Shown here: positions 43,729 to 50,220 of the stretch, in pieces
How the letters are laid out: each line of letters opens with the position of its first letter
How positions within the stretch are numbered: the stretch's first letter is position 1
Source: Parafannyhessea umbonata
GTDB lineage: Bacteria; Actinomycetota; Coriobacteriia; Coriobacteriales; Atopobiaceae
Direction: 5' to 3'
Assembly (NCBI RefSeq): GCF_900105025.1
Contig: NZ_LT629759.1
Span: forward strand, 682,001 to 746,000
Length of the DNA: 64,000 nucleotides
The notes under the pieces: model-generated
What the model was told of the DNA's origin: nothing
Seen by the model: only the letters and a program-made list of their open reading frames with translations
The model's database searches: none
Made by a program: the position numbers and the translations under genes

Positions 43729-44089
43729 CTACCACTTCAAGAGGACGGAGGGACTCACCTGCGGTGAGAGCAACTTCCTCAAGGCGTACGCGCCGTCCAC
43801 GTTCTGCGGCGATGACTTCAACATCGTAGAGAGGTTCTCGAAGACGGCGAGGTACTTCCCGTACTGCACGAGGGCCGACATGGGCCTACTGGCGGATATA
43901 GCAGAGTCCCTCGTCGAGAAGGGCCTCCTCAAGAGGGGGAGGGGGAAGAGGGGACAGGTCTACAGGCTCACCGAGGACGGGGAGCGGGCGTGGTACGGAC
44001 TCGTCGGAGGCAAGGACAGGGCAGAGCGGGCGAGGGTCACTGGCTACAGGGCCAAGATGAAGGCGAAGATGAGGGGTATCGATGAGTAG
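43718..44089 (+). CDS. Winged-helix-like phage protein
   Basis: 123 aa from ATG 43718, overlapping the loader gene by 11 nt. LADIAESLVEKGLLKRGRGK, RGQVYRLTEDGERAWYGLV reads as helix-turn-helix followed by a beta wing, typical of small DNA-binding regulators; a basic tail (YRAKMKAKMRGI) follows. Possible transcription or replication accessory factor. Confidence 0.6.
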   Translation: MPSDYHFKRTEGLTCGESNFLKAYAPSTFCGDDFNIVERFSKTARYFPYCTRADMGLLADIAESLVEKGLLKRGRGKRGQVYRLTEDGERAWYGLVGGKDRAERARVTGYRAKMKAKMRGIDE

Positions 44090-44744
44090 CGGGCAGAGGC
44101 CGATGACGGGCAAGGGCAGCGGGAGGAAGAACAACCTCCCGACAGCGACGAGGCCCGTCGAGAAGAGCAACGACGTCGCGTACGCCAAGGAGCTGTTCAT
44201 GCTCCCGACGATTGACATGGAGGACCCGGACGCGGTGCGCGACAGGTACTTCGAGCTGCTCGAGCTGAGCGAGAAGTACGGGCGTGCAATCACGATTGAG
44301 GCGCTGTCGATGGGGTTCGACACGACGCGCGAGGAGATTATCGAGGTCAGCAAGGGCGAGAGGTGCAGACTAGGCGCGAGGCTGAGCGTCGCTTCGGCCC
44401 CGATTTTTCAAAAATGTTTGAATTCCGTCGCAGGTATTTGGGCTACCCACATGAGCAGCGGAGACTTCAAGCAGCCCGTGGCTGGCATCTTCATCGGAAA
44501 GAACAACTTCGGCTATGGCGACGTCACCGAGACGGTTGTCCGCCACGAGAGCGCCAAGCTTGGTCCCTCGAAGGCGGAACTCGAGGCCAAGTACCAGTCG
44601 GCTCTCCCGACTGAGACGCCGGTAGATGCGGACGTCGAGGCCGTCTACGAGCTTCCGAAGCCCAAGAAGGCACCGGCGAAGCGCAAGCCCGGCAGGCCGA
44701 GGAAGACGAGCACGAGTGGCCGAGGCCGCAAGAAGAGCCAGTGA
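44082..44744 (+). CDS. Putative terminase small subunit / DNA-packaging protein
   Basis: 220 aa. The middle part, AITIEALSMGFDTTREEIIE followed by FQKCLNSVAGIWATHMSSGD and VAGIFIGKNNFGYGDVTETV, resembles phage small-terminase-like proteins (the GIF-KNNFGY segment is characteristic). The C-terminus is Lys/Pro/Arg-rich with an AT-hook-like KRKPGRPRKT. The large subunit is nearly 4 kb away, beyond repeats and an inverted operon, which is unusual. A transcription factor is an alternative. Confidence 0.5.
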   Translation: MSSGQRPMTGKGSGRKNNLPTATRPVEKSNDVAYAKELFMLPTIDMEDPDAVRDRYFELLELSEKYGRAITIEALSMGFDTTREEIIEVSKGERCRLGARLSVASAPIFQKCLNSVAGIWATHMSSGDFKQPVAGIFIGKNNFGYGDVTETVVRHESAKLGPSKAELEAKYQSALPTETPVDADVEAVYELPKPKKAPAKRKPGRPRKTSTSGRGRKKSQ

Positions 44745-44754
44745 GCTGCGGATT

Positions 44755-44890
44755 TCACCGAATTCGAGAAACCTTTATTAGGGGTCTGGCCCAGAAATTT
44801 CGGCGAAATAGGAAAACCTTTATTAGGGCATCCAGACAGAGAGAAATCGGGAGCCGGAAGCTGAAAAGCTCGGATTCCCAGACAGAAAAA
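44755..44890 (+). repeat. 45-bp-period tandem repeat after the terS-like gene
   Basis: AAACCTTTATTAGGG occurs at 44769-44783 and 44814-44828 in larger similar units (TTTC-n-CCGAA/GGCGAA before, TCTGG/CCAGAC after). A degenerate third unit follows to about 44885. Position next to a putative small-terminase gene fits a packaging (pac/cos) or replication-control site. Confidence 0.55.
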
Positions 44891-44933
44891 GCGCCTCGGG
44901 GCCAGCGACGGCCTCGGGGCGCTTTCTTTTTGC
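44888..44933 (+). terminator. Intrinsic terminator after the terS-like gene
   Basis: AAAAAGCGCC-TCGGGGCC and GGCCTCG-GGGCGCTTT form a long GC-rich stem followed by CTTTTT. It ends the replication/terS operon. Confidence 0.88.
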
Positions 44934-45354
44934 CGTTATATCGGCGGGAAACTGTAACGGGTGGACGCCGCGCAATGGCGTCTGTAAGGCAATACAGGGC
45001 CGTTTTTTGGTCGATAGCGCGTGAACGCGACTAAGTGCCCATATAGACAAACGCAATGCCTTGAATCGCCTTAGAATGGCTAGTAAGTGGATTGTGGAGA
45101 AACGCACGATATGCGGCGGCGGCGTCCCGGCGACGTCGTTGCCGTGACGTGGCGCGCGCTGTATGTGGTTGGTACGCTAGGAAACAGCGCTTTGCGGGAT
45201 ATGCGGGAATGTGCGTGTGAGACTCTGCAAGGGCAAAATTAGGCCGTCAAATACAGAACGATAACAAGTATCAACGTTGCCGCAAATGGCGTCTAAAAAC
45301 GCCTTAGAATGGCTTGCATGGATAGCGGAGGCAATACCGGAGGCGATACGGAGA
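44934..45354. other. Noncoding, repeat-bearing stretch
   Basis: No gene is supported. The 15-mer CGCCTTAGAATGGCT occurs twice (45067-45081 and 45300-45314), and CGCA(A)ATGGCGTCT twice (about 44971 and 45281). The segment contains CG-rich clusters near 45111-45160. It separates two convergent terminators, so transcription appears to stop from both sides. Confidence 0.55.
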
Positions 45355-45385
45355 CAAAAAAGCGCCCCGGATACGTCCGGGGCGC
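45355..45385 (-). terminator. Intrinsic terminator of the minus-strand operon
   Basis: GCGCCCCGGA (45362-45371) and TCCGGGGCGC (45376-45385) form a perfect 10-bp stem with a TACG loop. On the minus strand the stem is followed by T6 or more (A run at 45356-45361). Confidence 0.92.
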
Positions 45386-45392
45386 AGTGGCG

Positions 45393-45494
45393 TCAAGCGT
45401 TGTTGCAAAGCCAAAAAAGTATCAAGAGCGGTAGCCATACCGGCAAAAGCAAGACAGCCAAAAGTATGATTAGAGTTCCGTAGTCGTGTTTCAT
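45393..45494 (-). CDS. Tiny membrane peptide of the minus-strand operon
   Basis: 33 aa from ATG 45494: MKHDYGT, then a long hydrophobic stretch (LIILLAVLLLPVWLPLLILF) and WLCNNA. It lies 9 nt after the upstream gene and 8 nt before the terminator hairpin. One or two membrane crossings are possible. Unrecognised, but its fit into the operon supports it. Confidence 0.6.
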   Translation of the reverse strand: MKHDYGTLIILLAVLLLPVWLPLLILFWLCNNA

Positions 45495-45503
45495 TCGCTG
45501 CAC

Positions 45504-46169
45504 CTACCAAATGCCGTTATATACGTGGCCGTTCTCTTCAAAATATGCTTCGTAGATGTTGCATTCTTCTACAAATCGGTCTTCGCTAGTCGCGTCTTCC
45601 CAACACATCTCAATGAGTCCGTCTACCGCGTTACACACGCGCGACGCCGCGCCAGAAAGCATTTTCTCCATCTTGTCGCGGTAATGCGCCGCCCTTTCGT
45701 TAGCTTGCCCGGATAGTCCAAGGTAGGCAGAGGCTTCGTAAGTAGATGCGTCGGCGTCGGTGTACATGCTAAAAAACGTGTCTGATTCACCGCTGAATCT
45801 ATCGCGCATGTATGCACAATGCACAAACTCTTTCCGCAAGTCTATAAATTCGTCGTCGTTTATCCAAGCGCTTGCGATATCGATATCACACCAAACAGAA
45901 TCGCGTGAGAAGTCCGGAAAATCATAGCCGTAACATGCATCATCGGTAAAATCGGCCTTGTAGGTGGTCGAATAGACGCCTCCGCCGATTCTGATATCTA
46001 TGCCGGTTGCATCCTCAAAAGCAGAAACGGTGTCGTTGACGTCATATACGAGTGATTCATAGCCAGCTTCCGCGCCACTTTGTGAAGCGGCATACTCTTC
46101 AAGCGCGCGCGCCTTGGCTTCCGGTGTGAGTTCTTCGTAGGTGTAAACAGTCTTCGTGATTGTCTTCAT
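45504..46169 (-). CDS. Acidic protein of the minus-strand operon
   Basis: 221 aa from ATG 46169. The N-terminus KTVYTYEELTPEAKARALEE recurs in several phage and plasmid proteins of unknown role. The rest is acidic and aromatic (GYDFPDFSRDSVWCDIDIAS, TFFSMYTDADASTYEASAYL) and ends in YFEENGHVYNGIW. No catalytic motif is seen. Base composition is AT-richer than the surrounding phage genes, suggesting separate acquisition. Confidence 0.65.
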   Translation of the reverse strand: MKTITKTVYTYEELTPEAKARALEEYAASQSGAEAGYESLVYDVNDTVSAFEDATGIDIRIGGGVYSTTYKADFTDDACYGYDFPDFSRDSVWCDIDIASAWINDDEFIDLRKEFVHCAYMRDRFSGESDTFFSMYTDADASTYEASAYLGLSGQANERAAHYRDKMEKMLSGAASRVCNAVDGLIEMCWEDATSEDRFVEECNIYEAYFEENGHVYNGIW

Positions 46170-46215
46170 GGTTAGTATTCTTCCTTGTCCGTGGCCGTCT
46201 GGTATGCGTCTGCAC

Positions 46216-46716
46216 CTACTCAAACCCATGTGCAACGCCATTGGGCACGAAAAGCGCTATGCCGCGCATTTCCGGCGCGTACTCCGCTCGCGTGCCTAGG
46301 CGGATGCATCCGCACGTTTCCGCCCGGTCTATGTCCGTACTCACATCGTCCCAACGCTTTGCGCAAAGCTTGTAGATAGTGCCGCGTGTGCCGTCGATAG
46401 TCGCGCTGTAAAAATCGTAGTAGCGCGGGACGTCGAAAATCTCATAGTCGTAATCCGCATAAAGCCTAAAGCAATTGCCACGCTTTGCCGTCTCATAGTC
46501 GCCGGGTGAGACCTCATACACGCAGATACCGCGCGGACCCGACACTAAAAGCGGGATTGTGGCGTAGTCGTTTCCATAAACGCACGGGCCCAGTATGTCG
46601 ACAACGTTTAAATCATCTATGTAAGCAAGGTCCGCGACGAATTCGCGCCACAAACCGCAATAGTTGCCATCCGGGTGAATAAGCGCGTTGCCGTTCTTGT
46701 AAGTGGTTGCGTACAT
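46216..46716 (-). CDS. Unrecognised protein of the minus-strand operon
   Basis: 166 aa from ATG 46716. Tyr/Asp-rich (VVDILGPCVYGNDYATIPLL, RLYADYDYEIFDVPRYYDFY) with a beta-rich appearance and no membrane segment. It follows the first gene of the operon by 11 nt. Not recognised. Confidence 0.6.
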   Translation of the reverse strand: MYATTYKNGNALIHPDGNYCGLWREFVADLAYIDDLNVVDILGPCVYGNDYATIPLLVSGPRGICVYEVSPGDYETAKRGNCFRLYADYDYEIFDVPRYYDFYSATIDGTRGTIYKLCAKRWDDVSTDIDRAETCGCIRLGTRAEYAPEMRGIALFVPNGVAHGFE

Positions 46717-46727
46717 GGTTACTCATC

Positions 46728-47282
46728 CTAATCGGTGTCGGTGGCGTAACTGTAGGCCGTAGCAAGCTCTTCAAGTGCAGCGTTCACGTCGTCGGGCACG
46801 TCTACATAGCGGAGGTCAAGGGTTAAATCATCCGGGTCGATTGACCCACACACCTCTTCTGCAAAGTCGTCCCTTGAAGCACATGCGCGTGCTGTTACGT
46901 CGTCCAAGTCTTCTATGTACAGGTTGCCGCAAGAGTCGTAATGAATGTAGTCCGAGCCGGTGACACGCCCGTTTACAGCGGCTGCAACTATGTCGTCGAT
47001 AAGGCTGCACCACTTATCCGCTTTCGAGCCGGTCATACAGTCGAAAAACTCTTCAGTATCGAAAACGTCGAAACCGTTGCCGAACTCGCTGTAGTTCTCT
47101 TTCTCATAGCTAGCAATGAACCAGACCAATTCAGAATCATCTAGCTCACTTATCGCGTCCGTTACTACAATCTCTGCAAGGGCCTGTCTTTCGTCGCGTG
47201 TGAGTGCTGCAAGGGCCTCAGCCGTGTACTCCTTGCCGTTCGGGTCCGTGTAGGCGATTACTTGAGTCTTTGTTTCTTTCAT
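46728..47282 (-). CDS. Very acidic first protein of the minus-strand operon
   Basis: 184 aa from ATG 47282 with GGAGG upstream. A short KETKTQVIAYTDPNGKEYTA start is followed by an Asp/Glu-dominated protein (DAISELDDSELVWFIASYEK, NGFDVFDTEEFFD, GNLYIEDLDDVTARACAS). Such net negative charge is reminiscent of DNA-mimic antirestriction proteins, but no family motif is seen, so this is only a hypothesis. Confidence 0.65.
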   Translation of the reverse strand: MKETKTQVIAYTDPNGKEYTAEALAALTRDERQALAEIVVTDAISELDDSELVWFIASYEKENYSEFGNGFDVFDTEEFFDCMTGSKADKWCSLIDDIVAAAVNGRVTGSDYIHYDSCGNLYIEDLDDVTARACASRDDFAEEVCGSIDPDDLTLDLRYVDVPDDVNAALEELATAYSYATDTD

Positions 47283-47607
47283 TGCTTTACCTCCGTAAGC
47301 CGTTTGCCTTACTTGACACATTGCAAGCGTATCCACTTACGACTAGTACACGCATGCAAGTCGATACGCTTACATAGATTCTCCACATTCACACGTTCGT
47401 CTGTTTGTCGCATATATAGGGCGTGCGTTTGTGCAGTTGGAGGCTATCGGCCCGGGCCACATCGACCTACTGGGGAGGGATTGTTAAGGTAGTTATGTGC
47501 TCTACTAAGCCTCCTCTCCGCCCGCGAAAACAAAAAGGCCTTGACAGCGGAACCGCTTAGCCCCACACTACGTATGAACGCAGCTACGAGGCAATGGAGG
47601 TGCCGCG
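47283..47607. promoter_or_regulatory. Divergent control region of the minus-strand operon and the HTH/resolvase genes
   Basis: No gene is supported. AAGCGTATC (47325-47333) and GATACGCTT (47363-47371) form an inverted repeat 29 nt apart, placed like an operator upstream of the minus operon. GGCCCGGGCC near 47450 is a perfect palindrome. The plus side has TTGACA near 47543 before the HTH gene. Confidence 0.5.
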
Positions 47608-47880
47608 ATGAGGTCAACGGACGTAATCAGGGACAGGGTGAAGGCTTCCGGTACGTGGAGCATGAGGGCGCTCGCGCAGAGGCTCGGCATGATGCCGCAG
47701 ACGATGAACACCCGCCTCAACGCCAAGACCGTGGGCGTCGGCTTCCTCGTCGCCTGCCTCGACGTGCTTGGCTACAGGCTCGTGGCCGTCCCAATCACGT
47801 CCAAGCTCCCGTCCGGCTCGATAGAGGTAACCGACAGCATGACGGTCGGCCCGGCCCCGGCGAACAAGAAGGAGCGCTAG
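47608..47880 (+). CDS. Small HTH DNA-binding protein
   Basis: 90 aa, ATG 47608 with GGAGG eight bases upstream. SMRALAQRLGMMPQTMNTRL is a helix-turn-helix; the following GVGFLVACLDVLGYRLVAVP resembles the region after the HTH in small phage XRE proteins. It ends 2 nt before the serine recombinase gene and may regulate it or the divergent operon. Confidence 0.65.
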   Translation: MRSTDVIRDRVKASGTWSMRALAQRLGMMPQTMNTRLNAKTVGVGFLVACLDVLGYRLVAVPITSKLPSGSIEVTDSMTVGPAPANKKER

Positions 47881-47882
47881 AC

Positions 47883-48488
47883 ATGGCAACCTACGGCTAC
47901 GTCCGCGTCTCGACGGAGCGCCAGAACCTCGACCGCCAGCTCGCGACCATGGCATCGCTCGGAATCGGCGGAGACTTCCTGTTCCGCGACAAGGCATCCG
48001 GCAAGTCTCTCGACAGGCCCGGGTGGAAGGCCCTCATGGATACCGTCTCCGACGGCGACCTCATCGTCATTGACTCTCTCGACCGGCTCGGGAGGAACTT
48101 CGGCGAGGTTACGGAGCAGTGGCGCGAGCTTGCCCACCACCGTGGCGTAGATATCCGCATACTCGACCTCGATTTCATGGACTCGCGCAAGTTCCGCGAG
48201 ATGGGCGACATTGGCGAGGCGATGGAGTCGGTCGTTCTCTCGACGCTCGCGTACGTGGCGCAGAGCGAGCGCAAGGAGCTGATACGACGCACTAGGGAGG
48301 GCGTGGCGATAGCCAGGGCCGCAGGGAGGATGCGCGGAGGCGTCAAGAAGCGCATACCGGCAGAGCGCATGGACGAGGCGCAGAGGATGCTCTCCGACGG
48401 TGCCTCTAGGCGCTCTGTGGCGTCCTACCTCGGAGTCCACCCGAACACCGTCGCGAACATGGTGAAGGACGGGAGGCTCGTGGCGTAG
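47883..48488 (+). CDS. Serine recombinase (resolvase/invertase family)
   Basis: 201 aa. The catalytic domain begins TYGYVRVSTERQNLDRQ with nucleophile Ser10. DSLDRLGRN carries the conserved Arg pair, and LSTLAYVAQSERKELIRRT is the dimer helix. The C-terminal HTH (MLSDGASRRSVASYLGVHPN) binds the crossover site. Length and architecture match Tn3 resolvases and DNA invertases rather than large phage integrases. Its target could be a tail-fibre inversion outside the window, multimer resolution, or a small internal switch. Confidence 0.9.
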   Translation: MATYGYVRVSTERQNLDRQLATMASLGIGGDFLFRDKASGKSLDRPGWKALMDTVSDGDLIVIDSLDRLGRNFGEVTEQWRELAHHRGVDIRILDLDFMDSRKFREMGDIGEAMESVVLSTLAYVAQSERKELIRRTREGVAIARAAGRMRGGVKKRIPAERMDEAQRMLSDGASRRSVASYLGVHPNTVANMVKDGRLVA

Positions 48489-48564: not shown

Positions 48565-50220
48565 ATGCCCAAGCTCGTCGAGTCCATCTGCGCCTACATC
48601 GACGCGAACCCTAGGGACGTCGGCGCGTACGTAGACGCCGCTTCCGCGATAGCTCAGTCTCGCGAGGACGGCGCGATAGACCACTCGGATAACCAGATGG
48701 TCCTCTCCCGGTTGCAGGACGCGATTCGCTGCGGCTGGGCGTCGCTCCAACAGCTCGAGTCTCTCGGCGACTGCTACAGGACGGTAATCACCGTTGACGC
48801 TAGGGTTGACTTCGACTCGTTCGCTCAGGCCATGGAGCTTGACCGCGACCCGAAGTCGAGGCTCTGGCTCCCGCGCAGGAGCAAGCTTTGGCGCCTCTAC
48901 AAGGAGTTGCAGTGGTTCGAGACGAACCCGAAGGCTGAGTTCCTGTCCGTCTCTATGCCTCCCAGAACTGCGAAATCTTCGACGTGCTGCATGGCTATGG
49001 CATGGCACTCCGGGAGGGACCCGCTGCACTCGAACCTCGTCGTTGCCCACTCCGACGCCCTCACGGACCACTTCTACAATCAGGTGCTCGAGTTCATCAC
49101 GGACCCGCGCTACCGCTTCTCCGAGATATTCCCCGAGGCGAAGCTCGTCGAGAAGTCAGCCGAGTACGAGTCCCTCACGCTCGGCGAGAGGCGCTCGTAC
49201 CCGTCCATAACCTGCCGCTCCATCTCCGGAACGCTCACCGGCGCCGTAGAGGTCGGCGAGGGCGGATGGCTCTACGCCGATGACCTCGTGAAGGACATTG
49301 AGGAGGCAAGAAGCCCCGTCCGCCTCGAGAAGAAGTGGGCGAACTACGTCAACCAGTGCTACGACCGCCGCAAGACCGGCGCTAAGCAGCTCATGGTCGG
49401 AACAAGATGGGACGTCAACGACCCAATCGGTCGCATGAGCAGGCTCCACGAGGGCGAGGAAGGGTTCCACACGCTGGTGATACCGGCGCTGGACCCGGAC
49501 ACCGGCGAGAGCAACTTCGAGTACGAGTACGGTGTCGGCTTCTCGACCGAATACTACATCGACATGAAGCGCACCACGGACTCCGCGACCTACGCGGCTA
49601 AGTACGACGGCGACCCGATAGTGCGCGAGGGCCAGCTGTTCCCGCCAGACTCGCTCGAGCGCTACCTGTCCCTTCCCGACGAGGCACCGACGCGCACCGT
49701 CGCAGTCGTTGACACGAAGGGTGTCGGCACCGACTACTGCGCCATGCCCGTCGCGATGCAGTTCGCATCAGTGCCGGGAAAGTGGTTCATAGCGGACGCG
49801 CTCTGCGACAACTCTGTCCCCAAGGTCGTTAACAGGCGCGTCGCGTCGATGATTGCCTCTGACGGGGTTCAGGTCGCGAGGTTCGAGTCCAACAGCGCGG
49901 GCGGGACCGTGGCCGACTCGATACAGAAGGCGCTCACGGACATGGGAGCACTCTGCTCGGTCCAGAAGAAGTACACCATGTCGAACAAGGAGACCAGAAT
50001 CCTCGCGGCGTCGCCTTGGATAATCAACAACTGCGTGTTCCGCGACCCGTCGCTCTACGAGACGAACAGCGACTACGGTCGGTTCATGTCTCAGGTGACC
50101 GGCTTCTCACTCGACTCCAAGAACGCCCATGACGATGCCCCGGACGCGCTCTCGATGCTCGCCGACATGCTCTCGAAGAGCGTCAAGGCGAAGGCGGTCC
50201 CCGTTAAGAGGCCGTTCTAG
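48565..50220 (+). CDS. terL: Terminase large subunit
   Basis: Phage DNA-packaging motor and nuclease, 551 aa. ATPase part: adenine/Walker A region SVSMPPRTAKSSTCC and Walker B area GGWLYADDLVKD. Nuclease part: VVDTKGVGTDYCAMPVA, a central FESNSAGGTVA, and the final acidic motif HDDAPDALSMLAD. The N-terminal 100 residues are an extra helical region. Ribosome site GGAGG upstream. It starts the late operon and leads to portal. Confidence 0.92.
   Translation: MPKLVESICAYIDANPRDVGAYVDAASAIAQSREDGAIDHSDNQMVLSRLQDAIRCGWASLQQLESLGDCYRTVITVDARVDFDSFAQAMELDRDPKSRLWLPRRSKLWRLYKELQWFETNPKAEFLSVSMPPRTAKSSTCCMAMAWHSGRDPLHSNLVVAHSDALTDHFYNQVLEFITDPRYRFSEIFPEAKLVEKSAEYESLTLGERRSYPSITCRSISGTLTGAVEVGEGGWLYADDLVKDIEEARSPVRLEKKWANYVNQCYDRRKTGAKQLMVGTRWDVNDPIGRMSRLHEGEEGFHTLVIPALDPDTGESNFEYEYGVGFSTEYYIDMKRTTDSATYAAKYDGDPIVREGQLFPPDSLERYLSLPDEAPTRTVAVVDTKGVGTDYCAMPVAMQFASVPGKWFIADALCDNSVPKVVNRRVASMIASDGVQVARFESNSAGGTVADSIQKALTDMGALCSVQKKYTMSNKETRILAASPWIINNCVFRDPSLYETNSDYGRFMSQVTGFSLDSKNAHDDAPDALSMLADMLSKSVKAKAVPVKRPF

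Follow-up and report, generated by a model that had tools for sequence, protein, structure and literature searches.

A prophage of Parafannyhessea umbonata carries, between its terminase genes, what is probably an exchangeable accessory operon, acr-aca-like in its action and most likely encoding counter-defence proteins. The genes of this operon, its operators, the geometry that these share with other phages, the swapping of genes in a sister phage and the domain relationship of the first product are all present in the DNA itself. The stretch analyzed (the window) comprises 64,000 nucleotides of a host genome that consists of a single 2.35-Mb contig. From these features we infer the binding of a helix-turn-helix (HTH) protein to the operators, the timing of expression, DNA mimicry and the target. 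The HTH protein, encoded by the first gene of the HTH-recombinase-TerL strand, would repress the operon and, more weakly, its own gene by binding to the tandem 20-bp operators of the control region that the two share. Phage DNA entering a repressor-free cell would set off a burst of operon expression, and the operon would be shut down after the burst and in the lysogen. The first product, p1, would act as a DNA mimic that shields the incoming phage DNA from host defence, perhaps together with the third product, p3.

Gene content and composition of the locus

The locus begins with a TerS-like gene on the plus strand, followed by the accessory operon on the minus strand and by the HTH, recombinase and TerL genes, again on the plus strand (Table 1). 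The initial annotation had described four minus-strand genes separated by short gaps, and their lengths and order proved exact, as did their placement between the terS-like gene and the recombinase/terL pair. Genes 1-2, 2-3 and 3-4 are 11, 46 and 9 bases apart, and the operon ends, as had been proposed, in a perfect intrinsic terminator with a 10-bp GC-rich stem followed by T6. The foreign, AT-richer composition also held: the GC content of the four genes is 45-55%, compared with about 62% in the surroundings, and their GC3 is 54-65%, compared with 83-91% for TerS, HTH and recombinase. The same is true of the acidic character of the first three proteins, the aromatic residues of p2 and the membrane nature of the last peptide.

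Table 1. Positions in the window of the accessory operon, its control sites and the bordering phage genes
Feature	Coordinates	Strand	Remarks
TerS-like gene	44082..44744	+	Left border; assigned by position, without profile match
Intrinsic terminator of operon	45362..45385	-	T tail 45361-45356
Gene 4 (p4)	45393..45494	-	33-aa one-helix membrane peptide, net charge about +1
Gene 3 (p3)	45504..46169	-	221 aa, net charge -28; phrog_10310-like uncharacterised phage family
Gene 2 (p2)	46216..46716	-	166 aa, net charge -9, aromatic-rich
Gene 1 (p1)	46728..47282	-	184 aa, net charge -32; remote member of phrog_4534-like domain family
Operator 3	47294..47313	-	AGTAAGGCAAACGGCTTACG; adjoins ribosome-binding site of gene 1
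Operator 2	47322..47341	-	CGTAAGTGGATACGCTTGCA
Operator 1	47355..47374	-	TGTAAGCGTATCGACTTGCA
Weak fourth operator-like site	47542..47561	+	Overlaps -35 of HTH gene (TTGACA 47541-47546)
HTH gene	47608..47880	+	90 aa, pI 10.6, divergent; candidate repressor of operon and of itself
Serine recombinase	47883..48488	+	Resolvase/invertase family; conserved neighbor of HTH
Terminase large subunit (TerL)	48565..50220	+	Right border

Neither Pfam nor NCBIfam contained a family above cut-off for any of the four operon proteins, and only uncharacterised PHROGs were matched among the curated profiles. A tblastn search of genes 1-3 against 50,697 phages and 72,556 plasmids gave no matches or chance-level ones only. 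No relatives of p2 were detected, and the searches gave no functional clue to p2 or p4. The statement that none of the four is recognised was therefore correct for curated profiles, whereas genes 1 and 3 turned out to be members of widespread uncharacterised phage families.

The sister phage L003 matches the window in the control region with all three palindromes, in genes 3 (82%) and 4, in the terminator and in the non-coding sequence as far as TerS, but genes 1 and 2 are replaced there by two unrelated ORFs. The swapped stretch starts just past the third palindrome and stops in the intergenic sequence ahead of gene 3. An accessory operon that is self-contained, with its own signals, is what we find, and the exchange of genes 1 and 2 makes its contents replaceable. 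The dN/dS of gene 3 between the window and L003 is 0.195, and this purifying selection indicates a real gene. The non-coding sequence after TerS (about 600 bases, window positions 44740-45390) is about 86% conserved in L003 and contains a repeated CGCCTTAGAATGGCT and, immediately behind the TerS stop codon, a doubled AAACCTTTATTAGGG element; this stretch could belong to the packaging site.

The control region and its counterparts in other phages

Operators 1-3 are tandem 20-bp palindromes of the form GTAAG-N8-CTTRC. The inverted repeat noted earlier upstream of the operon (47325-47371) does mark a control region of its own, but the "repeat" is the cross-pairing of two of the three tandem palindromes. 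Scored with a model built from the three sites of the window and those of the sister phage, the operators are the top sites of the window, at 21-26 bits compared with 12 for the next best. The 2.35-Mb genome contains this triple a single time, and none of 396 other genomes of the order has it. A search of IMG/VR with the operator pattern returned 77 stretches, of which only the two sister phages fit by score and context; the other high scorers L058, L031 and L027, judged by eye, look like unrelated repeat tracts and were discarded. The viral contig L027 (9200-10000) holds many spaced GTAAGTC/GACTTAC repeats, which are non-coding and unrelated to the operon. A master repressor acting on these operators throughout the prophage was rejected, as the sites are present only at this locus, and so was an attenuator or structured RNA formed by the inverted repeat, as every one of the 20-mers forms a dyad on its own in the two sister phages and Rfam gave nothing above the gathering score. 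The promoter of the window's operon is not obvious by consensus. The HTH protein has weak matches to CI-repressor and DUF6471 HTH profiles.

A search with the HTH protein uncovered relatives that are 38-45% identical; the named ones sharing the HTH module come from Atopobiaceae, Olsenella and Eggerthellaceae. In several, the recombinase and/or TerL come after the HTH gene, and on its other side lies a divergent operon whose genes are short and mostly acidic. The TerS / operon / HTH-recombinase-TerL layout recurs in other Coriobacteriales phages with other operon genes, L187, L189 and L190 keeping the layout with acidic genes different from those of the window. L187 and L189 each encode a "SVTGNGSGSYTF" type protein, and L190 encodes another one along with a relative of gene 3 (E 2.5e-8). 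The last product of the L189 operon, a 40-aa hydrophobic peptide, resembles gene 4. A shared acidic family, recognisable by the motif S[VI]TGNGSGSYTF (HVTGNGSGSYTF in L187), is encoded at L187:6019-6687, L189:5879-6241 and L190:6721-7236; it has no Pfam match and is located in the same divergent operon in these three other Coriobacteriales phages.

Operator arrays were sought blindly, as self-similar dyads and with no spacing information used, and were recovered in the window, L003, L187, L189 and L100/L191. The array score was above every shuffle for the window, L187, L189 and L100, and was reached by 2 of 300 shuffles for L003; the blind test failed for L190, where the sites were placed by hand. 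The operators differ in sequence (GTAAG..CTTAC, ATAGCC..GGCTAT, ATCAAC..GTTGAT and GCAACG..CGTTTC), while the spacings on the operon side are constant at 33-34 and 27-28 bp in four lineages with diverged HTH genes (window/L003, L187, L189 and L191/L100). The distance between the HTH start and the beginning of the operon-side arrays is 223-236 bp, and a further site, weak in the window, lies near the HTH -35. Promoter elements are clear in L187 and L189 only, where operator 2 falls between a recognisable -35 and -10. The more distant HTH relatives L101-L112 have no array, which is hence not general to such HTH genes. The change of operator sequence with geometry kept in four lineages points to the HTH protein as a co-evolving repressor of the operon. 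As operators occupy the operon control region and a site covers the HTH gene's own promoter, we infer that the HTH protein, once accumulated, represses both.

The families of genes 1 and 3

The family of p1 was first suspected through a motif; this bait served only to fetch real members, which were used in all tests. Against a 62-member profile built without p1, p1 scored 13.3 bits (best of 2000 shuffles, 9.7) and ranked second against about 5,000 unrelated ORFs, one of which scored higher. Hhalign matched p1 to the family with a probability of 80 and a score of 37.9 (best of 300 shuffles, 20.1), and gave the other operon proteins a probability of 4.1 at most. All three family members tested matched phrog_4534. 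The alignment of p1 with these phrog_4534-like proteins extends over 104 columns and takes in the DY-x-x-[FY]-[ND]-x-x-GNL motif, but identity is only about 20%, and p1 is longer at both its N- and C-terminal ends and in its middle loop.

The ArdA N-domain (PF07275) begins the viral p1-family proteins L157 (1.3e-22) and L137 (9.5e-8), and a plasmid protein of Lactobacillus taiwanensis annotated as ArdA ends in a p1-family domain (4e-18). With the ArdA N-domain fused to a p1-family domain in three proteins, p1 is probably a member of a family linked to antirestriction through fusion, without being ArdA itself. The suggestion of an anti-defence candidate gains from this link. In L137 (2674-3255) and L157 (2668-3171), the p1-family domain makes up the C-terminal half and replaces the usual ArdA C-terminus. 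Like ArdA (PF07275; Tn916 Orf18, PDB 2w82), p1 is strongly negative, and its family supplies the C-terminal part in three proteins with an ArdA domain. Unlike ArdA, p1 has no ArdA N-domain and no family in Pfam up to an E value of 10, PF07275 included. The model of p1 (pLDDT 81) gave no significant match in the PDB, and ArdA was not among the matches listed. Classical ArdA C-termini showed no sequence match to the p1 family.

With its net charge of -32, p1 is probably a DNA mimic directed at a type I restriction enzyme or at some other defence that binds DNA. Stand-alone small ArdA C-terminal fragments (sArdC) have been reported to block type I restriction (PMC12548430). Plausible targets exist, as both a type I specificity subunit (HsdS) and Cas3 are present in the host genome. 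A p1-family gene of Staphylococcus phage phiIPLA-C1C lies between the genes of a "TreN-like membrane protein" and a "Tre protein" (L120:200-346 and 1017-1280).

Gene 3 partially matches the uncharacterised phrog_10310 (E 2.6e-8) and scored 23.9 bits against a profile built without it, with 12.3 for the best of 2000 shuffles. Genes of its family adjoin p1-family genes in the viral contigs L132, L171 and L186, that is, in 3 of 60 p1-family loci; in the control loci the only p3-family gene was that of the window's own phage, a difference that alone is statistically not strong. Genome contigs scanned with gene 3 gave no matches, and the structure model of p3 was too poor for use. We regard p3 as probably a second acidic inhibitor.

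Alternative readings and known systems

The initial annotation had seen the operon as a "moron" expressed in the lysogen, and a lysogenic-conversion role, with expression from the prophage serving superinfection exclusion or host fitness, would suit the separate control region and terminator, the low GC content, the strand opposite to the late genes and the small membrane peptide. This is rather unlikely, as an operator geometry conserved over diverged phages predicts repression whenever the HTH protein is made; expression in the lysogen runs against the three operator-like sites and the fourth over the HTH promoter. Another possibility is a host-takeover operon, whose acidic proteins would block transcription or replication of the host at an early stage of infection and not a defence system. 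Some p1-family genes sit in the terminal repeats of Bacillus herelleviruses, and herellevirus terminal repeats are a place of host-takeover genes. A precedent is the very acidic SPO1 Gp44, which mimics DNA and inhibits RNA polymerase (PMC8208478). The fusions of the p1 domain to the ArdA N-domain point instead to antirestriction, and the swap of genes 1 and 2 between near-identical phages better fits changing host defences, so we find host takeover distinctly improbable. The adjacent recombinase, of the invertase family, could in principle flip or swap the operon as a cassette, and short inverted matches flank it (45090-45108 with 47379-47435). These matches, GTGGAGAA and AAACGCACG, carry no evidence for a role as recombination sites. 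They are short and out of register, the operon has a single orientation relative to HTH in the window, L003, L187, L189 and L190, and the swap in L003 ends at intergenic junctions and not at the flanking repeats, all of which makes such a cassette highly improbable.

The counter-defence operon that we favor can be set beside known loci. Aca repressors bind to inverted repeats that cover their own promoters (PMC8434428), and acr-aca loci such as acrIF8-aca2 of phage ZF40 (PMC8434428) share with the present one a small HTH regulator, small accessory proteins, predicted autorepression and inverted repeats about 20 bp long that overlap a promoter. Here, however, the HTH gene is divergent and heads the HTH-recombinase-TerL strand outside the accessory operon, with three operators on the operon side and one at the HTH promoter, and there is no proven anti-CRISPR. 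Curated profiles gave no proven anti-CRISPR or other inhibitor for the operon genes of four phages. As the regulator lies outside the operon and no inhibitor is proven, we did not file the locus as an Aca locus. In archaeal viruses, shared regulatory sequences guide to anti-defence genes (PMC11065993). A regulatory sequence likewise marks candidate genes here; the archaeal virus genes share an early promoter motif, whereas these phages have repressor-like operators whose sequence varies by phage and whose geometry is kept.

A broader proposal, which we hold only tentatively, is that Coriobacteriia phages share a dedicated terS-terL counter-defence hotspot, in which the operator sequence of one repressor family would vary while the four-operator geometry stays fixed, and which would mark the p3 family, the SVTGNGSGSYTF family and the stand-alone p1 domain as unrecognised immunity inhibitors. 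To our knowledge, few counter-defences of gut actinobacterial phages have been studied. The fixed terS / operon / HTH-recombinase-terL locus, with operators that flag its accessory genes, gives a direct way to collect and test candidate inhibitors, and joint changes in the specificity of a repressor and its operators can readily be studied in it. Two widespread uncharacterised phage families also gain a testable function.
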